DNA from: Marinobacter sp.
GTDB lineage: Bacteria > Pseudomonadota > Gammaproteobacteria > Pseudomonadales > Oleiphilaceae
Direction of reading: 5' to 3'
DNA length: 52,584 nt
Assembly (NCBI GenBank): GCA_014762755.1
Contig: JABURI010000272.1
Location: 1 to 52,584 of the forward strand
Position 1 is the stretch's first letter. Each line of letters starts with the position of its first letter. The translations under genes were made by a program, and so were the position numbers. Below are positions 15,728-33,985 of this stretch, piece by piece. The notes under the pieces are model-generated. The model made no database searches. It saw nothing but the letters and a program-made list of their open reading frames with translations, and was not told the origin of the DNA.

Positions 15728-15742
15728 GGTAAGCGCCAAGCA

Positions 15743-15884
15743 GGGGTCAGAAGAAGGCTTTCTTCAGACCCCGGAGCGTGAAAATGGGGTCTGATGAACT
15801 TGTTCATCTGACCCCATCTTCAACCAAACTCCCCAATCACCCAGCCCCACTCAGGGGTCTGATGAACTCCGTTCATCTGACCCC
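15743..15884. repeat. Cluster of three palindromic repeats (REP-like)
   Basis: Three hairpins between the convergent genes acuI and DUF934: 15743-15772 (A-type, arms GGGGTCAGAAGAA / TTCTTCAGACCCC), 15786-15815 and 15854-15884 (T-type, arms GGGGTCTGATGAAC / GTTCATCTGACCCC; the last has a one-base-longer loop). They are near-identical to the pair at 7539-7616 and in the same A-then-T order. The second and third belong to a 68-bp tandem duplication described separately. Confidence 0.85.
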
Positions 15885-15917
15885 ATCTTCCGCCAAACTC
15901 CAAATCACCCAGCCCGC
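15786..15917. repeat. 68-bp tandem duplication including the 3' end of the DUF934 gene
   Basis: Unit 1 begins at 15786 and unit 2 at 15854. Both contain the T-type palindrome, then ATCTTC, CCAAACTCC and AATCACCCAGCCC. In unit 2 the TCACCCAGC part is the stop codon and last two codons (Ala-Gly) of the minus-strand DUF934 gene, so unit 1 appears to carry a copied gene end. The spacers between shared blocks differ by a few bases, so the copy is not recent. Confidence 0.75.
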
Positions 15918-26950: not shown

Positions 26951-27041
26951 GGTGGGCTGGCAGAGTGGCTGAATGCAGCGGTCTTGAAAACCGCCGACGG
27001 TTAGTAGCCGTCCCGGGGTTCGAATCCCTGGCCCACCGCCA
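26951..27041 (+). tRNA. tRNA-Ser (anticodon UGA)
   Basis: A 91-nt class II tRNA with encoded CCA. The acceptor arms GGTGGGC and GCCCACC pair fully. The anticodon loop CTTGAAA is closed by GCGGT/ACCGC and gives anticodon TGA. A long variable arm (GACGG/CCGTC) follows, and the T arm holds GGTTCGAATCC. Reads UCA and related serine codons. Confidence 0.97.
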
Positions 27042-27112: not shown

Positions 27113-27889
27113 TTATTGGTTCTGTCTGTCAGGCCGGTAACCAAGCTGGCGTGAAATATCCTCTCCCGCGCGTTTCAGTTCTGCGATCCATTCATCTTTG
27201 CGACGCTCGATAGGCGCCGAAACCGATAGCCCGGCACTCACGTTTCCGGAGCGGTCATAGATGAGCACGCCGATACAGCCCACGCCGATCTCGGCTTCCT
27301 CATTGTCGAGAGCGTAACCCTGGCGCATGCTCTTCAGGCACTCTTCCTCCAGTTCCGGCAGCGACGACAGTGTGTTCCGGGTATAGGCCGGCAAGTTGGT
27401 CCGGTTTGCATAGGCCTGAATGGCTTCCTCTCCTGCCAGCCCCAGCATCAGTTTGCCTACCGCTGTCACGTGTAATGGGGCGCGGCTTCCCACTATCTGG
27501 TTTACATGCATCATCCGGTTCGGGGTGACCTTCTCGAAGTAGATCACGACATCGCCCTCGCGGATGGTGAGGTTGATGGTTTCTCCCAATTGCTTACAAA
27601 GGGCTTCCATATAGGGCAGTGACACAGCTCGCAGATCAATGTCTGTGTGGAGGCGGTTGCCCAGCTGCAGTAGCCGCTGACCTAACCGGTAATCGCCGTT
27701 GGAATCCCGCTCGACAAAGCGATTGCTGATTAACGAATGCAGGATTCGATAGGCGGTGGAGGGCGCAAGCCCGGTGTCGGCGCTCAGGGTTTTCAGTTTT
27801 ACCGGCTTTGAGTACCTGGAGATGGCTTCCATGAGCATGGCTGCCCGGTCGATTACCTGGATTCTCGATTCCGTTTTCGTGTCCATCAT
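27113..27889 (-). CDS. bhcR: IclR-family regulator of the beta-hydroxyaspartate cycle (BhcR-like)
   Basis: 258 aa: an N-terminal winged helix (about 12-75, RAAMLMEAISRYSKPVKL and LAPSTAYRILHSLI) and a C-terminal ligand-binding domain (about 90-250, with the IclR-family EEAEIGVGCIGVLIYDRSG). Divergent from bhcA across a 295-base gap, the arrangement described in Paracoccus, where BhcR responds to glyoxylate. Two similar 15-bp palindromes in the gap are likely binding sites, one overlapping its own -35 region, which suggests autoregulation. The assignment rests on family and position. The start may be 27889 or 27886. Confidence 0.85.
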   Translation of the reverse strand: MMDTKTESRIQVIDRAAMLMEAISRYSKPVKLKTLSADTGLAPSTAYRILHSLISNRFVERDSNGDYRLGQRLLQLGNRLHTDIDLRAVSLPYMEALCKQLGETINLTIREGDVVIYFEKVTPNRMMHVNQIVGSRAPLHVTAVGKLMLGLAGEEAIQAYANRTNLPAYTRNTLSSLPELEEECLKSMRQGYALDNEEAEIGVGCIGVLIYDRSGNVSAGLSVSAPIERRKDEWIAELKRAGEDISRQLGYRPDRQNQ

Positions 27890-27943
27890 GAAATGGTTTT
27901 GTCCCTTTGGGCAACGACGGTTTGCTGGAAATTTATGCCGCTT

Positions 27944-27972
27944 ATTTTGTCATATGGAGGCAGTTTCCACAA
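27944..27972 (-). promoter_or_regulatory. Candidate bhcR promoter
   Basis: On the minus strand TTGTGG (27972-27967), 17 bases, CAAAAT (27949-27944), 55 bases before the bhcR start. Both boxes are only moderate matches. The -35 lies inside palindrome 1. Confidence 0.35.
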
Positions 27973-27979
27973 TACGGAA
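27965..27979. promoter_or_regulatory. Candidate BhcR operator 1
   Basis: TTCCACAATACGGAA, an inverted repeat TTCC(A)...(C)GGAA. Read on the other strand it matches operator 2 at 13 of 15 positions. Located about 76 bases before bhcR, overlapping its putative -35 box. Size and symmetry fit IclR-family sites. Confidence 0.6.
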
Positions 27980-28060
27980 TGAGTCGTTAGCTATTTATGT
28001 TGGATTTAAATTACTGAAAATCTGGTAGAAAAAAACAAAGCAAATGTTATTCGCTGAATA

Positions 28061-28075
28061 TTCCATAATGTGGAA
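28061..28075. promoter_or_regulatory. Candidate BhcR operator 2
   Basis: TTCCATAATGTGGAA with perfect 5-bp arms TTCCA/TGGAA, 109 bases before the bhcA ATG. The rest of the 27890-28184 gap is AT-rich and contains no open frame I would support. Confidence 0.6.
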
Positions 28076-28184
28076 TCTTTGCGGATTGCGCAAATTTTGG
28101 TCCGCTCCTACGGTGGATTCGTGGGCGGCAAGCAGCAATGCAGACCCCACCACCGGACATAAATACAAGAACGGAGTGGAATCA

Positions 28185-29354
28185 ATGTCGGATCAGAATC
28201 CCGTTTTCATACCCGGCCCCACCAACATCCCTGACCGGTTGCGTTCTGCAATGCAGCTTCAGACGCGCGACCACCGCGCCCCGGATTTCGTGGAAACCCT
28301 TGGCCCGGTGTTGCACCAGTGCAAATCGGTCTTCGGCACCGCTGATGGAGAGGTGTTTATTTTCCCCGCAAGCGGTACCGGCGGCTGGGAGGCTGCAATC
28401 TGCAACACGCTGTCGCCGGGTGACAGGGTTTTGGTTGCCAGGTATGGAATGTTTTCCCAGCGCTGGATTGATTTGTGCCGCCGGCACGGGCTGGAGGTTG
28501 AAGTTATTGAATGCACCTGGGGCAGCGGTGCGCCGGCGGACTGGTTTGAGGAATTGCTCCGGGCTGATACGGGGCACGAGATCAAGGCCCTGCTGGTCAC
28601 TCATAACGAAACCGCCACGGGTGTGAAGAGCGATATCGCTGCTGTGCGAAACGCTCTGGACAGCGCCTCCCATCCGGCCATGTTGTTTGTCGACTGCGTC
28701 AGTTCGCTGGCGTCTATGCCGTTTGCCATGGACGACTGGGGTGTGGATGTAGCGGTCGCCGGTTCGCAGAAGGGCTTCATGCTCACCACCGGTCTGGCCA
28801 TCCTCGGTGTCAGCCAAAAGGCGCTGACTGCCATGGAGAGCGCAACTCTGCCACGGGCCTTCTTCGATTTTCAGGCAATGCGCGCGGCGAATGAGCAGGG
28901 CGGTTATCCCTACACGCCACCGTTGCAGCTGATTCATGGTCTCCGGGAAAGCCTGCGCATGCTGTTCGAGGAAGGCCTGGACAATGTTTATGCCCGGCAT
29001 TACCGGCTTGCGGAGGGCGTTCGCTGTGCCGTGCGGGCCTGGGGGCTGGAGCTTTGTGCACGGTCTCCGGACCTCTATTCCGACACCGTCAGCGCAATCC
29101 GGGTGCCTAAAGGCTTTGACAGTAATGCGCTTACCGATCACGCCTTTGCCAAATACGGGGTCTCTTTCGGTGTCGGGCTGGGGGAAATGAACGGCGACGC
29201 CTTCCGGATTGGTCATCTGGGATCTCTTACCGATGTCATGGTGCTCTCCGGCCTGGCAACGATCGAGATGGCAATGGCGGATCTGGACTATCCGATCGAT
29301 CTGGGGGCCGGTGTGCGCGCTGCCCAGGATTATTTCCGCAAGACAGCAAGCTGA
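28185..29354 (+). CDS. bhcA: Aspartate-glyoxylate aminotransferase (BhcA)
   Basis: In the beta-hydroxyaspartate cycle it aminates glyoxylate to glycine using aspartate as donor. 389 aa, class V PLP aminotransferase of the serine-glyoxylate/alanine-glyoxylate group. The start FIPGPTNIPDRLRSAM, the PASGTGGWEAA loop, LFVDCVSSLAS with the cofactor Asp170, and PLP Lys196 in VAGSQKGFM are visible. By itself it could be called serine-glyoxylate aminotransferase; the three following genes make the BhcA assignment. The ATG at 28185 has GGAGTGGA upstream. First gene of the operon. Confidence 0.88.
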   Translation: MSDQNPVFIPGPTNIPDRLRSAMQLQTRDHRAPDFVETLGPVLHQCKSVFGTADGEVFIFPASGTGGWEAAICNTLSPGDRVLVARYGMFSQRWIDLCRRHGLEVEVIECTWGSGAPADWFEELLRADTGHEIKALLVTHNETATGVKSDIAAVRNALDSASHPAMLFVDCVSSLASMPFAMDDWGVDVAVAGSQKGFMLTTGLAILGVSQKALTAMESATLPRAFFDFQAMRAANEQGGYPYTPPLQLIHGLRESLRMLFEEGLDNVYARHYRLAEGVRCAVRAWGLELCARSPDLYSDTVSAIRVPKGFDSNALTDHAFAKYGVSFGVGLGEMNGDAFRIGHLGSLTDVMVLSGLATIEMAMADLDYPIDLGAGVRAAQDYFRKTAS

Positions 29355-29373
29355 CGAGTCGGCGAGGTATACC

Positions 29374-30336
29374 ATGAACGATCAAATCCAACAGATACCC
29401 ACTTTTGAGGACGCGCTGGCCGCCAGGGAGCGCATAGAGCCGTACATCCATCGTACGCCGGTTCTGACCTCCCGGTTCCTCAACGAGCTGACCGGGGCCG
29501 AGCTGTTCTTCAAATGTGAGAACTTTCAGAAGGCCGGCGCATTCAAGGTGCGGGGTGCCTGCAACGCGGTTTTCGGGCTGAGCGAGGCCCAGGCGCGGGT
29601 TGGTGTGGCCACCCATTCGTCCGGTAACCACGCGTTGTCCCTGTCCTATGCGGCTGGCCAGCGGGGTATCCCGGTGACCGTCGTCATGCCGCATACGGCA
29701 CCGCGAGCGAAGAAAGAGGCGGTGCTGGGCTACGGCGGCACCATTGTTGAGTGTGAGCCCTCAACCAGTTCGCGTGAGGCGGTTTTTGCCGAGGTGGTGG
29801 CGCAATCCGGTGCGGACTTTGTTCACCCCTACAACGATCCGCGGGTAATAGCCGGCCAGGCCACTTGCTCCATGGAGCTGAATGAGCAGGTGCCGGGCCT
29901 GGAGGCGGTTATAGCGCCAATCGGCGGCGGAGGCATGATATCGGGCACTTGCCTGACGCTGTCCAATGTGGCGCCGGATGTGGCGATTTATGCCGCCGAG
30001 CCGCTCAATGCGGACGATGCAGCCCGATCCTTCAGGGCAGGTCACATCATTGCGGACGATGCGCCGGACACCGTCGCTGACGGCCTGAAAGTCCCTTTGA
30101 AAGAACTTACCTGGCACTTCGTGCGCAATCACGTATCGGACATCCTGACCGCCAGTGAGGAAGAGATTGTCGATGCCATGAAACTGATCTGGAAGCGAAT
30201 GAAGATTGTCATGGAACCGAGTTCTGCCGTGCCCCTGGCAACCATTCTGAAGAACCCCGAGCTGTTCCGTGGCAAGCGGGTCGGCGTGATCATAACCGGC
30301 GGCAATGTGGACCTGGACGCGCTTCCCTGGACCTGA
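29374..30336 (+). CDS. bhcB: Beta-hydroxyaspartate dehydratase (BhcB)
   Basis: Removes water from (2R,3S)-beta-hydroxyaspartate to give iminosuccinate. 320 aa, fold-type II PLP enzyme of the threonine dehydratase/serine racemase group. Lys58 in AGAFKVRGA should bind PLP; the phosphate loop is PIGGGGMISG; SSGNHALSLSYAA is the substrate loop. There is no C-terminal ACT domain, so it is not the isoleucine-pathway IlvA. It starts 19 bases after bhcA. Confidence 0.88.
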   Translation: MNDQIQQIPTFEDALAARERIEPYIHRTPVLTSRFLNELTGAELFFKCENFQKAGAFKVRGACNAVFGLSEAQARVGVATHSSGNHALSLSYAAGQRGIPVTVVMPHTAPRAKKEAVLGYGGTIVECEPSTSSREAVFAEVVAQSGADFVHPYNDPRVIAGQATCSMELNEQVPGLEAVIAPIGGGGMISGTCLTLSNVAPDVAIYAAEPLNADDAARSFRAGHIIADDAPDTVADGLKVPLKELTWHFVRNHVSDILTASEEEIVDAMKLIWKRMKIVMEPSSAVPLATILKNPELFRGKRVGVIITGGNVDLDALPWT

Positions 30337-30361
30337 ATAACAATCAACGAGGATATCGGTA

Positions 30362-31531
30362 ATGACCAACATGAACCTGAAAACCACTGACGGCCTGGAA
30401 GTGGGCTACGACATTCCGGCAGCGATTGGCATGGATGAAAGCGAAATACAAACCCCCTGCCTGGTGCTGGATCTGGACGCATTGGAATACAACATCAAGA
30501 AAATGGGCGAGTACGCCAAGGCCCACGGCATGCGCCACAGAATTCACGGCAAGATGCACAAGTCAGTGGATATCGCCCGACTGCAGGAACAACTCGGTGG
30601 CGCCGTCGGAGTGTGTTGTCAGAAGGTTTCTGAGGCGGAGGTCTTTGCCCGGGGCGGCATCAAGGACATCCTGGTATCCAACCAGGTCCGGGACCCCGGC
30701 AAAATCGACCGGCTCGCCCGGATCCCGAAGCTGGGCTCAAGGACCATTGTCTGTGTAGACGACTCTGACAACGTCCCGGAGCTGTCGGCGGCCGCTCAGC
30801 GTCATAACACTCAACTGGACTGCTTTGTGGAAATTGATTGCGGGGCCGGGCGCTGCGGTGTCACCACGACGGAGGAGTTAGTCGGTATTGCCAAGGCAAT
30901 CGACGAAGCAGCGAACCTCCGGTTCGCCGGAATCCAGGCATACCAGGGGGCGATGCAGCACATGACCTCCTATGAGGAACGCAAGGCCAAACTGGATGCC
31001 GCGATAGCAATGGTCCGTGAGGCGGTCGCCGCGCTGAAGGAGGTCGGTCTTGAGCCGGAACTGGTGTCCGGCGGGGGAACCGGCTCCTACTATTTCGAGA
31101 GCAATTCGGGCGTTTATAACGAGCTCCAGTGTGGTTCCTACGCCTTTATGGACGCGGACTACGGTCGAATCCAGGACAAGGAGGGCAACCGAATTGACCA
31201 GGGTGAATGGCGAAACGCATTGTTCATCCTGACCAGCGTCATGAGCCACGCCAAGTCCGACAAGGCAATTTGCGACGCCGGCCTCAAGGCCCAGTCGGTG
31301 GACAGCGGTCTGCCGTTCATCTTCGGACGGGACGATGTGGAATACATCAAGTGCTCGGACGAACACGGGGTCATTGCCGATCCCCAGGGCGTTCTGGCCA
31401 TCAACGAAAAGCTGAAACTCGTGCCGGGTCACTGTGATCCCACCTGTAACGTTCACGACTGGTACGTGGGGGTGCGCAACGGCAAAGTCGAAACCCTGTG
31501 GCCCGTCAGCGCCCGCGGCAAGGCTTTCTGA
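30362..31531 (+). CDS. bhcC: Beta-hydroxyaspartate aldolase (BhcC)
   Basis: Joins glycine and glyoxylate to (2R,3S)-beta-hydroxyaspartate, the carbon-carbon bond-forming step. 389 aa, alanine-racemase-fold PLP enzyme like D-threonine aldolase. The PLP Lys is about 64 in RIHGKMHKS; the metal-binding pair is likely His357 and Asp359 in PGHCDPTCNVHDW; VSGGGTGSYYF binds the cofactor phosphate. It follows bhcB after 25 bases with GAGGATA as ribosome site. D-threonine aldolase is the alternative reading of the protein alone. Confidence 0.9.
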   Translation: MTNMNLKTTDGLEVGYDIPAAIGMDESEIQTPCLVLDLDALEYNIKKMGEYAKAHGMRHRIHGKMHKSVDIARLQEQLGGAVGVCCQKVSEAEVFARGGIKDILVSNQVRDPGKIDRLARIPKLGSRTIVCVDDSDNVPELSAAAQRHNTQLDCFVEIDCGAGRCGVTTTEELVGIAKAIDEAANLRFAGIQAYQGAMQHMTSYEERKAKLDAAIAMVREAVAALKEVGLEPELVSGGGTGSYYFESNSGVYNELQCGSYAFMDADYGRIQDKEGNRIDQGEWRNALFILTSVMSHAKSDKAICDAGLKAQSVDSGLPFIFGRDDVEYIKCSDEHGVIADPQGVLAINEKLKLVPGHCDPTCNVHDWYVGVRNGKVETLWPVSARGKAF

Positions 31532-31541
31532 GGAGGTTACG

Positions 31542-32546
31542 ATGGAGACACCAGTAAACGTGAGTCAAACCGGCCATCAGGTAACTGTGGTTCCGGAAGA
31601 GGCGTGCCAGGCGGTAATCGGGCGAAAACAGGCCTTCGAGGCAGTCGAGGCGGTGTTCGCGTCCATGGCAAGCGGGTCCGCCCGCAATTTCCCGGTGGTC
31701 AGGGAGGCGATTGGTCATGCCGATGCCCTCTATGGATTCAAGTCCGGATTTGATCGGGCGGGTATGGTCCTTGGCGTGAAGTCCGGGGGTTACTGGCCGG
31801 GCAATGTCCAGAGAGGGCTGACCAATCACCAGTCAACGGTCGTGCTGTTTGACCCCGATACCGGCCGATTGGCAGCGCTGGTCGGCGGCAACTACCTGAC
31901 TGCGGTCCGGACAGCGGCGGCGTCGGCGGTATCGATTGCTCATCTGGCGCGAAAGGATGCGAGGGTCCTGGGCATGGTGGGCGCTGGCCACCAGTCCACG
32001 TTTCAGCTCAGAGCAGCGCTTGAACAGCGTAACTTTGATCAGGTGGTCGGCTGGAATCGTAATCCGGAAAGCCTTGCGCGACTGGCGGCAGTGTGTGAGG
32101 AGCAGGGTGTGCCTTTCGAGGCCGTTTCATTGCCGGACCTTGGCGCCCGGTCCGATGTGATCATCACGATCACCTCGGCGTTTGAACCGCTGTTGATGTC
32201 TGAATGGGTCAAGCCGGGTACCCACATTGCGTGCATGGGCACAGACACGAAGGGTAAGCAGGAGGTTGATCCTATGCTGTATTCCCGGGCAGCGATCTTC
32301 ACCGACGAAGTCGCCCAGGCCACCAGTATTGGTGAATCCCAGCATGCGGCGGCAACCGGAATTCTGGCTCCAGAACGGATCGTCGCCATTGGGGATGTGA
32401 TCAACGGAAAACACCCGGGGCGCAGCGCAGAGCAGGACATTACCCTTTTTGACGGTACCGGGGTCGGTCTGCAGGATCTGGCAGTTGCATCGATGGCGGC
32501 GAAGCTGGCGGGCGCAGAGGGATTGGTGGAGCGGTTTGTTCTGTAG
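31542..32546 (+). CDS. bhcD: Iminosuccinate reductase (BhcD)
   Basis: Reduces iminosuccinate to L-aspartate with NADH, closing the cycle. 334 aa, ornithine cyclodeaminase/mu-crystallin family. Rossmann loop GMVGAGHQSTFQLRA near residue 147; family blocks VGGNYLTAVRTAAASAV and GTHIACMGTDTKGKQEV. The ATG at 31542 follows a strong AGGAGG, 10 bases after bhcC; an open frame extends upstream inside bhcC but is not credible. Last gene of bhcABCD. Alone it could be called an ornithine cyclodeaminase-like protein. Confidence 0.9.
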   Translation: METPVNVSQTGHQVTVVPEEACQAVIGRKQAFEAVEAVFASMASGSARNFPVVREAIGHADALYGFKSGFDRAGMVLGVKSGGYWPGNVQRGLTNHQSTVVLFDPDTGRLAALVGGNYLTAVRTAAASAVSIAHLARKDARVLGMVGAGHQSTFQLRAALEQRNFDQVVGWNRNPESLARLAAVCEEQGVPFEAVSLPDLGARSDVIITITSAFEPLLMSEWVKPGTHIACMGTDTKGKQEVDPMLYSRAAIFTDEVAQATSIGESQHAAATGILAPERIVAIGDVINGKHPGRSAEQDITLFDGTGVGLQDLAVASMAAKLAGAEGLVERFVL

Positions 32547-32624
32547 GCGACCCCGGGTATCTGCTTACTGGGGTTGCACTCAAGCGGCCCCCATAATGGG
32601 ATCAGTAGCAAACCAGGAGGAATT

Positions 32625-32855
32625 ATGCCTGATACCAGATCCAACAATGTTTCCGGACGCAAAGATCGAAAGTTCGCCGTCTCGGCAAACCGTGGCCAGG
32701 CCAGCCACCGGATCCGTTATGTGGAGACCGGGGGCGCACTGGTCGATACAGAGGAGTGCACTTTCTGTCAGTCGGTCCCGGATCTGCAGGACAGCGAGAA
32801 GGAAAAGACGGCCAGAGCCGAACCGGACTCCGACCGCCAGAAGTCATCTGACTGA
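32625..32855 (+). CDS. Small hydrophilic CxxC protein, unknown
   Basis: 76 aa with an excellent ribosome site (AGGAGG, 6 bases before the ATG at 32625). Highly charged and probably partly disordered, with one CxxC motif (ECTFCQ, about residue 45) that could bind metal or act in redox. No membrane helix or signal. It is 78 bases after bhcD and may be read from the bhc transcript or alone; it ends close to hemH in convergent orientation. I do not recognise a family. Confidence 0.6.
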   Translation: MPDTRSNNVSGRKDRKFAVSANRGQASHRIRYVETGGALVDTEECTFCQSVPDLQDSEKEKTARAEPDSDRQKSSD

Positions 32856-32875
32856 TCGTTGATACGGCGGATTCC

Positions 32876-33985
32876 TCAGAGGGATCTGCCGGGGTAGGCC
32901 ATTTCTTTCTGCTGGTCCGCCCGTTTCTGCCTGAGAGCCAGACTCTCCGGCTCGTTGGTCGGAATCTGCCAGCCTGCAAGATTGTCCTCGATCAGCTTGA
33001 CCAGCGCCTCGATGTGGCCCGGTGTCGCATTGAGAGCCGGAATGTAACTGAAGCCCTCACCACCGGCCTCCATGAAATACTCGCGGTTTTCCTCGTTGAT
33101 TTCCTCGATCGTCTCCAGGCAATCAGAAGAGAATCCGGGGCAGAACACATCGATCGATTTGACGCCCTTGCCAGGAAGCGATTTCAGGGTCTCATCCGTG
33201 TAAGGCTTGAGCCATTCCTCGCGCCCGAACCGGGACTGGAAGGTGGTCATGTAGTCTTCGGATGACAGCCCGAGGCGCTCCGCGAGCAGGCGTGAGGTCT
33301 TGTGGCACTCGCAGTGGTACGGGTCGCCTTTAAGAAGATATTTCAGCGGCACCCCGTGGTAGGACAGGATCAACTTGTCCTTGCGGCCATGGTTGGCCCA
33401 GTGCGCCTCGATATGCCGGGCCATCGCCTCGATATAGGGCGGGTAGTCCGGATAATGTGAGACAAAGCGCAGATCCGGCAGCCACCGGCGTTTGGTGAAG
33501 TCCTTGGCCACCGCATCGAATGTCGAGGCGGAAGTGGAGGCCGAGTACTGGGGGTAGAGCGGCAGGACCAGGAGCTTGCGCACGCCCTGTTCCTGCATTT
33601 CATCCAGCACCTTGCTGATGGACGGGTTGCCATAGCGCATGGCGAATCCGACCACAACATTCGGCCCGTACTTCTGCTTCAGCGCCTCGCGGATCCCTTC
33701 CGCCTGTTTGGCGGTGTGCAGAAGCAGGGGAGAGCCCTCTGCTTCCCACACACTGGCGTAGGCTTCGGCGCTGCGCTTCGGACGGATACGCAGGATGATG
33801 CCGTTCAGAATCAGCCACCACAGGGGGCGGGGAACCTCCACCACCCTGGGATCCCAGAGGAACTCCGCCAGATAGCGTCGAAGGGCTGAGGTGGTGGGGG
33901 CGTCCGGGGTGCCAAGGTTGGTCACCAGTACGCCCAGCCGTTCGGGCTGGTTGTGGCTGAAATTCTCTGAGCTTTTGTATTTCAT
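32876..33985 (-). CDS. hemH: Ferrochelatase
   Basis: Inserts ferrous iron into protoporphyrin IX, the last step of heme synthesis; membrane-associated cytoplasmic enzyme. 369 aa, close to other gammaproteobacterial HemH. Motifs: VLVTNLGTPDAPT at the start, GSPLLLHT, the catalytic His in LILSYHGVP, and the C-terminal PGFSSDCLETIEEI with its Glu residues. Single gene, convergent with the small CxxC gene. Confidence 0.96.
   Translation of the reverse strand: MKYKSSENFSHNQPERLGVLVTNLGTPDAPTTSALRRYLAEFLWDPRVVEVPRPLWWLILNGIILRIRPKRSAEAYASVWEAEGSPLLLHTAKQAEGIREALKQKYGPNVVVGFAMRYGNPSISKVLDEMQEQGVRKLLVLPLYPQYSASTSASTFDAVAKDFTKRRWLPDLRFVSHYPDYPPYIEAMARHIEAHWANHGRKDKLILSYHGVPLKYLLKGDPYHCECHKTSRLLAERLGLSSEDYMTTFQSRFGREEWLKPYTDETLKSLPGKGVKSIDVFCPGFSSDCLETIEEINEENREYFMEAGGEGFSYIPALNATPGHIEALVKLIEDNLAGWQIPTNEPESLALRQKRADQQKEMAYPGRSL

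Follow-up and report, generated by a model that had tools for sequence, protein, structure and literature searches.

A complete beta-hydroxyaspartate cycle operon in Marinobacter beside an IclR-family regulator that falls short of the BhcR model

Introduction

What controls a beta-hydroxyaspartate cycle (BHAC) operon when the gene standing in the place of its known regulator cannot be recognised as that regulator? The question is raised by a run of five genes, bhcABCD and a divergent IclR-type gene, at positions 27113-32546 of the window, by which we mean the whole 52,584-nucleotide stretch analysed here, contig C90 of a Marinobacter draft genome that is 82% complete. The original prediction, made from the letters of this stretch, had taken the five genes for the bhcR-bhcABCD cluster known from Paracoccus denitrificans. 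We consider it likely that the locus is a complete and probably working BHAC operon, supplied with glyoxylate by GlcDEF, gained as a cassette at a tRNA-Ser gene and controlled by an IclR-family regulator other than BhcR through two predicted operators.

The order of steps in the cycle is well established. Here BhcA would transfer the amino group of aspartate to glyoxylate, yielding glycine and oxaloacetate, and BhcC would join the glycine to a second glyoxylate to give 3-hydroxyaspartate. BhcB would dehydrate this product to iminosuccinate, which BhcD would reduce to aspartate. The net result would be one oxaloacetate from two glyoxylate without loss of CO2, the identity of the enzymes being taken from family models. 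PMC11323563 gives the same overall conversion, describes the cycle as already known from Alpha- and Gammaproteobacteria, and presents it both as a tool used in metabolic engineering and as a means of recycling, with no CO2 lost, the glycolate that algae release as a major carbon compound. Because the gammaproteobacterial cycle is published and NCBI names exist for the four enzymes, we regard the enzyme core of the present locus as a further example of a known system. A Nature paper of 2019 is reportedly the source cited for the cycle in both classes.

Results

The enzymes

The genes bhcA-bhcB-bhcC-bhcD span 28185-32546 on the forward strand, are all open, and follow the published order with the IclR-type gene divergent from them. 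Each protein was scored against NCBIfam equivalog models with curated bit cut-offs.

28185-29354, forward strand: bhcA, L-aspartate--glyoxylate aminotransferase (NF045640, 704 bits against 650; pyridoxal phosphate (PLP) lysine Lys196)
29374-30336, forward strand: bhcB, beta-hydroxyaspartate dehydratase (NF045641, 593 bits against 550; PLP lysine Lys58)
30362-31531, forward strand: bhcC, 3-hydroxy-D-aspartate aldolase (NF045642, 766 bits against 690; PLP lysine Lys64)
31542-32546, forward strand: bhcD, iminosuccinate reductase (NF045643, 561 bits against 500; Rossmann loop GMVGAG at residue 144)

The bhcABCD set is complete and, as enzymes, ordinary. A chance run of paralogues was dismissed as the origin of the operon because all four proteins exceed their equivalog cut-offs. 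The original prediction was correct about the complete set and its order, its gammaproteobacterial host, which is Marinobacter, the three PLP lysines, which lie where it had placed them, and the intact Rossmann loop; the roles of lysines and loop we assume by analogy with their families. The solved chains nearest in sequence to BhcC and BhcD are 6qkb, a D-3-hydroxyaspartate aldolase (E 1.4e-209), and 6rqa, an iminosuccinate reductase (E 4.9e-124), both of which we take to be Paracoccus enzymes. The chains nearest to BhcA and BhcB are less specific relatives: a serine--glyoxylate aminotransferase in the first case, serine racemases in the second.

Below, f2, f15, f30, f35 and f36 are handles for families, R is the regulator of the window's type, and G and L numbers denote genomes and loci. 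A concatenated enzyme tree, which omits G124, G050, G466 (bhcD in two pieces) and the plasmid locus L056 of Paracoccus pantotrophus (bhcA unmatched), places the window with the other Marinobacter loci, Marinobacterium lacunae, f30 and f35 (97/97), separate from an alphaproteobacterial group and from the f15 group. Compared with the two f30 loci, the window's enzymes are 72-74% (A), 85-86% (B), 74% (C) and 66-68% (D) identical and its regulator 29%.

The expectation that automated annotation would split the cluster into unrelated names was borne out for one older record and is otherwise partly wrong. Current NCBI models name all four enzymes, and the NCBI enzyme names for the cycle are already used in many plasmid records; the older record CP021184 does break up such a cluster, into serine--glyoxylate aminotransferase, serine/threonine dehydratase, alanine racemase and ornithine cyclodeaminase.

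The divergent regulator

27113-27889, reverse strand: IclR-family regulator (R), facing away from bhcA and below the BhcR cut-off (Pfam IclR_C and HTH_IclR; NCBIfam BhcR, 167 bits against 350)

Both Pfam domains lie well over their gathering scores (HTH_IclR 48.9 against 22, IclR_C 145.3 against 24). On the BhcR equivalog model, NF045644, the protein scores 167.1 bits and does not reach the cut-off of 350, and four relatives of its lineage score 153-163. Scores of 311-420 were obtained for six BhcR-type regulators that neighbour other bhc clusters; four of these clear 350, those of f30 (370-383) among them. The original prediction had called this gene bhcR; at 167 bits against 350 it looks instead like a member of another IclR lineage, with a very diverged sister of BhcR still compatible with the approximately unbiased (AU) test. 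Its identity to a Leisingera BhcR is 29%, to IclR 27%, and to AllR and KdgR 28% each.

The comparison with f30 carries this assignment: we place the regulator in a different IclR lineage because the f30 enzymes are 66-86% identical to the window's, yet the f30 regulators, which pass the BhcR model, are only 29% identical to it. In a free IclR tree (omitting G124 and Sinorhizobium pieces, which are too short, and one Bacillus row), the BhcR type falls together with IclR/AllR and the proteins of f36 (88/80), and separate from these is the Marinobacter type (100/100). The regulator is probably a separate IclR lineage that replaced BhcR.

According to Table 1 of PMC11323563, the pocket of Paracoccus BhcR consists, in IclR numbering, of Gly160, Ile161, Asp212, Ser239 and Ser241. 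Three of these five oxygen-contacting positions (Asp212, Ser239 and Ser241) are kept in the window's regulator, and the other two are changed, to Ala160 and Val161; the bhc-linked regulator of Marinobacterium lacunae retains the pocket glycine.

Members of the lineage also occur outside complete bhc clusters. Marinobacterium lacunae carries a second copy of the regulator away from bhc. In G490 an orphan regulator of the same lineage (L151, 2445-9017) follows a Bmp-type ABC transporter, which may point to purines or nucleosides, and bhcC was not found in this genome. In G203, an f2 genome that is 87% complete, a regulator cut by the contig end and an operator pair adjoin bhcA on a 5.3-kb contig (L153); the BhcA passes its curated cut-off, no bhcB, bhcC or bhcD follows it on that contig, and no bhcC was found in the genome. 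Since the lineage is present without bhcC in G490 and at the tRNA-Ser site of three Marinobacter genomes, it could conceivably help to coordinate further inputs of C2 compounds or purines.

Putative operators between the regulator and bhcA

27965-27979, forward strand: putative operator 1, TTCCACAATACGGAA, R-proximal, its position conserved in all nine R-bhcA gaps
28061-28075, forward strand: putative operator 2, TTCCATAATGTGGAA, bhcA-proximal, 96 bp from operator 1

Both sites lie in the 295-bp gap 27890-28184. The pair recurs in 9/9 R-bhcA gaps, including those of Marinobacterium lacunae and G203, with the two sites 93-96 bp apart. Across the nine gaps the sites differ from a strict motif at no more than three positions, or from a relaxed motif at no more than one. 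A motif built from the two sites and allowed up to two mismatches has five matches in the window against 0.35 expected, a number reached in none of 100 shuffles; four of the five are the two palindromes read on both strands. The looser pattern TTCC-N7-GGAA is not rare in the window (two found, 1.18 expected).

On a genomic scale the relaxed motif occurs at 17 places in 14 genomes, 13 of them in R-bhcA gaps, and a reversed control gives a single match, in G490. Within the window's own genome it is found only at operators 1 and 2. Gaps of the BhcR type (seven loci) contain no match at up to one mismatch, and one of the seven matches at two. Three Marinobacter genomes that hold the regulator alone each have one operator-like site with two mismatches. 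Because the motif was drawn from the same loci, these counts speak to its specificity and are not proof of binding. The conservation and spacing of the palindromes suggest that the regulator probably binds both of them in the promoter gap.

Insertion site and distribution

The wide stretches compared come from all seven Marinobacter carriers besides the window's genome and, at order level, from 11 of 14 matches other than the window's own (G262, G433 and G483 omitted). The cluster's surroundings in the window are defined by two features.

26951-27041, forward strand: tRNA-Ser(TGA), one flank of the insertion site (ARAGORN)
32625-32855, forward strand: conserved small open reading frame (ORF) of 76 amino acids with a CxxC motif (TEECTFCQSVPDL), the other flank, next to hemH

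The occurrence of bhc genes is patchy. BhcC exceeds its cut-off in 8/124 Marinobacter genomes, the window's own included. Among 390 genomes drawn from across the order, 15, in 5 of 142 genera, match bhcC at E <=1e-100, and 13 of these score over the cut-off. BhcC relatives at E 1e-60 are present in 135 records of a plasmid collection, which come from several genera of Alphaproteobacteria and from some others, and a single scan of named genomes gave three loci.

In the window, G122 and G140 the cluster lies between tRNA-Ser(TGA) and the small ORF next to hemH. In five genomes (G009, G012, G023, G028 and G112) the tRNA lies beside hemH and the space between them contains no regulator and no bhc genes; three of the five have the small ORF there, and it is also kept where the cluster or the regulator alone is present. 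The remaining five carriers hold the cluster elsewhere, near eutBC (G026, G103, G124) or near hypF (G096, G100). Taken as a whole, this arrangement suggests that the operon would have been gained as a cassette between tRNA-Ser and the small gene beside hemH. We claim no attachment repeat, because the tRNA and 32401-32900 share no stretch of at least 10 bases.

Other inserts occupy the same place, for which reason the tRNA-Ser site looks like an insertion hotspot: in G001 (L115, 2710-4011) other genes, including a phage-type integrase, lie between hemH and the tRNA, and in G131 (L114, 6807-8027) other genes follow the tRNA, one of them encoding a HEPN/RES-domain protein, with hemH outside the stretch compared.

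In three further genomes (G002, G087 and G119) the regulator occupies the site and bhcC is missing from the genome; the 5-kb contig of G119 ends before the tRNA. Simple loss of bhcABCD was considered for them. Compared with the window, their regulators differ at 54-56% of four-fold sites and their flanking genes (yccA, hemH, tetR and duf445; hemH and tetR only in G119) at 13-33%; the regulators of G140 and G122 differ at 27-29%. These values suggest allele exchange or a separate gain of the regulator, and do no more than suggest it because one flanking gene of G122, duf445, reaches 51%.

A separate observation concerns G124 (L041, 8348-9180), where an apparent single deletion has taken bhcA together with two thirds of bhcB and also the regulator's start, leaving bhcC and bhcD open. 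At 15738-15901 the window also contains a short repeat in inverted and direct copies (e.g. GTTCATCTGACCCCATCTT), which looks like a dispersed element of the repetitive extragenic palindromic (REP) type because a related stretch has over 50 short matches elsewhere in the genome.

Glyoxylate supply

The glyoxylate would come most likely from glycolate via GlcDEF. Matches to the GlcD family are found in 123/124 Marinobacter genomes at E <=1e-60, none of them over the curated cut-off. In each of the five other Marinobacter genomes fetched, four bhc carriers (G140, G026, G124 and G096) and the regulator-only G087, glcD, glcE and glcF lie side by side with a glcC-like gene nearby, and the GlcD is 59-62% identical to that of E. 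coli; the GlcF of G140 passes its model (664 against 333).

The window's own genome has a weaker GlcD-like protein only. Absence of glycolate oxidase was dismissed as the explanation, the glc operon being broken at two contig ends: since contig C40 stops at glcF and contig C57 opens with the glcC side, glcD and glcE probably fall in an assembly gap. The glycolate link of the original prediction is plausible in view of glcF in the same assembly and glcDEF in the four other Marinobacter carriers examined for it. A Marinobacter strain takes up labelled glycolate according to PMC10499878. The cycle is not universal in marine gammaproteobacteria: the authors of PMC9723591 found it absent from Alteromonas EZ55. 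Glyoxylate carboligase exceeds its cut-off in 8/124 Marinobacter genomes, none of them a bhcC carrier, a lack of overlap that is unremarkable at these counts (8 and 8 of 124).

Discussion

The locus closely resembles the bhcR-bhcABCD cluster of Paracoccus denitrificans, having the same four enzymes in the same order and an IclR-family gene divergent from them. Enzyme identities to locus L054 of the related P. pantotrophus are 63% (A), 76% (B), 79% (C) and 62% (D). The window differs in its regulator, which is 29% identical to that of L054 and below the BhcR cut-off, in its putative operator motif, and in lying beside tRNA-Ser in a Marinobacter contig. The BHAC clusters of f15 and f30 likewise share enzymes, gene order and a divergent IclR-type gene with the window; they differ from it in that their regulators are BhcR-like (f30 over the cut-off, two of f15 under it). 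E. coli IclR and AllR belong to the same family as the window's regulator, which keeps Asp212, Ser239 and Ser241 of their glyoxylate/pyruvate pocket, but they are only 27-28% identical to it and have Gly/Ala at 160/161 where the window has Ala/Val.

Several observations weigh against the reading we prefer, most of them concerning the regulator. BhcR is the top-scoring NCBIfam model for the protein; two f15 regulators placed with BhcR by the tree fall short of the cut-off as well (311 and 315 bits); and a tree uniting the regulator with BhcR as one clade is not rejected (p-AU 0.1), the program warning of long branches. Together with the shared divergent position and the three retained pocket residues, the first and third of these points would fit a genuine orthologue of BhcR whose divergence was very rapid on the branch to Marinobacter and Marinobacterium, which would make this an ordinary bhcR-bhcABCD cluster. 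We think this unlikely, given that identity to BhcR (27-29%) is no higher than to IclR, AllR or KdgR, that the free tree sets BhcR apart from the R lineage, that the adjoining enzymes diverged far less over the same split, and that the operator motif at up to one mismatch is missing from all seven BhcR-type gaps, one of which matches at two. The operators themselves are predicted from conservation with a motif drawn from the same loci, mostly close relatives, and no sigma-70-like promoter was found in 27800-28250. Further points of this kind are the 82% completeness of the draft, in which glcD and glcE were not seen, and G124, the one of eight Marinobacter carriers with no bhcA at its locus and only the last third of bhcB.

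The state of G124, and the three Marinobacter genomes with a regulator at the site and no bhcC, could be taken to mean that the cluster is a decaying or silent import. This is very improbable for the window, where the genes are open and the enzymes score above their cut-offs, and where the six other carriers that have an R-bhcA gap preserve the operators as well as the enzymes. A somewhat more credible alternative, if still a doubtful one, is that the operon works mainly in something other than growth on glycolate, either on glyoxylate from another source such as purines or in the detoxification of glyoxylate or hydroxyaspartate. Such a role would be in keeping with the 116/124 Marinobacter genomes that have no bhcC match at E 1e-100, even though glcD-like matches are widespread (123/124, E 1e-60), with a Leisingera cluster that sits among purine-degradation genes, and with the Bmp-type transporter upstream of the same-lineage regulator in G490. 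Glycolate is favoured by glcF in the same assembly, by glcD lying about 20 kb from bhc in G026 and G124, and by the glycolate uptake of a Marinobacter strain (PMC10499878) that may or may not carry bhc genes.

We therefore retain the reading of a probably working, glycolate-fed operon under a regulator other than BhcR. Going one step further, we tentatively propose, as a possibility well short of an expectation, that the cycle has been rewired in Marinobacter and Marinobacterium, where a separate IclR lineage, with an operator pair of its own about 95 bp apart, would have replaced BhcR and might respond to a signal that acts instead of glyoxylate or alongside it.

Control of the cycle has been worked out only in Paracoccus, as far as a limited literature check shows, in which no title among the matches listed dealt with its control elsewhere. 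The locus is a variant of the known cluster by virtue of its regulator and putative operators, and it merits a brief experimental study. Being a cassette of a gammaproteobacterium, with a regulator that differs and predicted operators in a compact pair, it would offer an independent system in which to ask what signal induces the cycle, and the regulator and its predicted operators together are a candidate sensor part.

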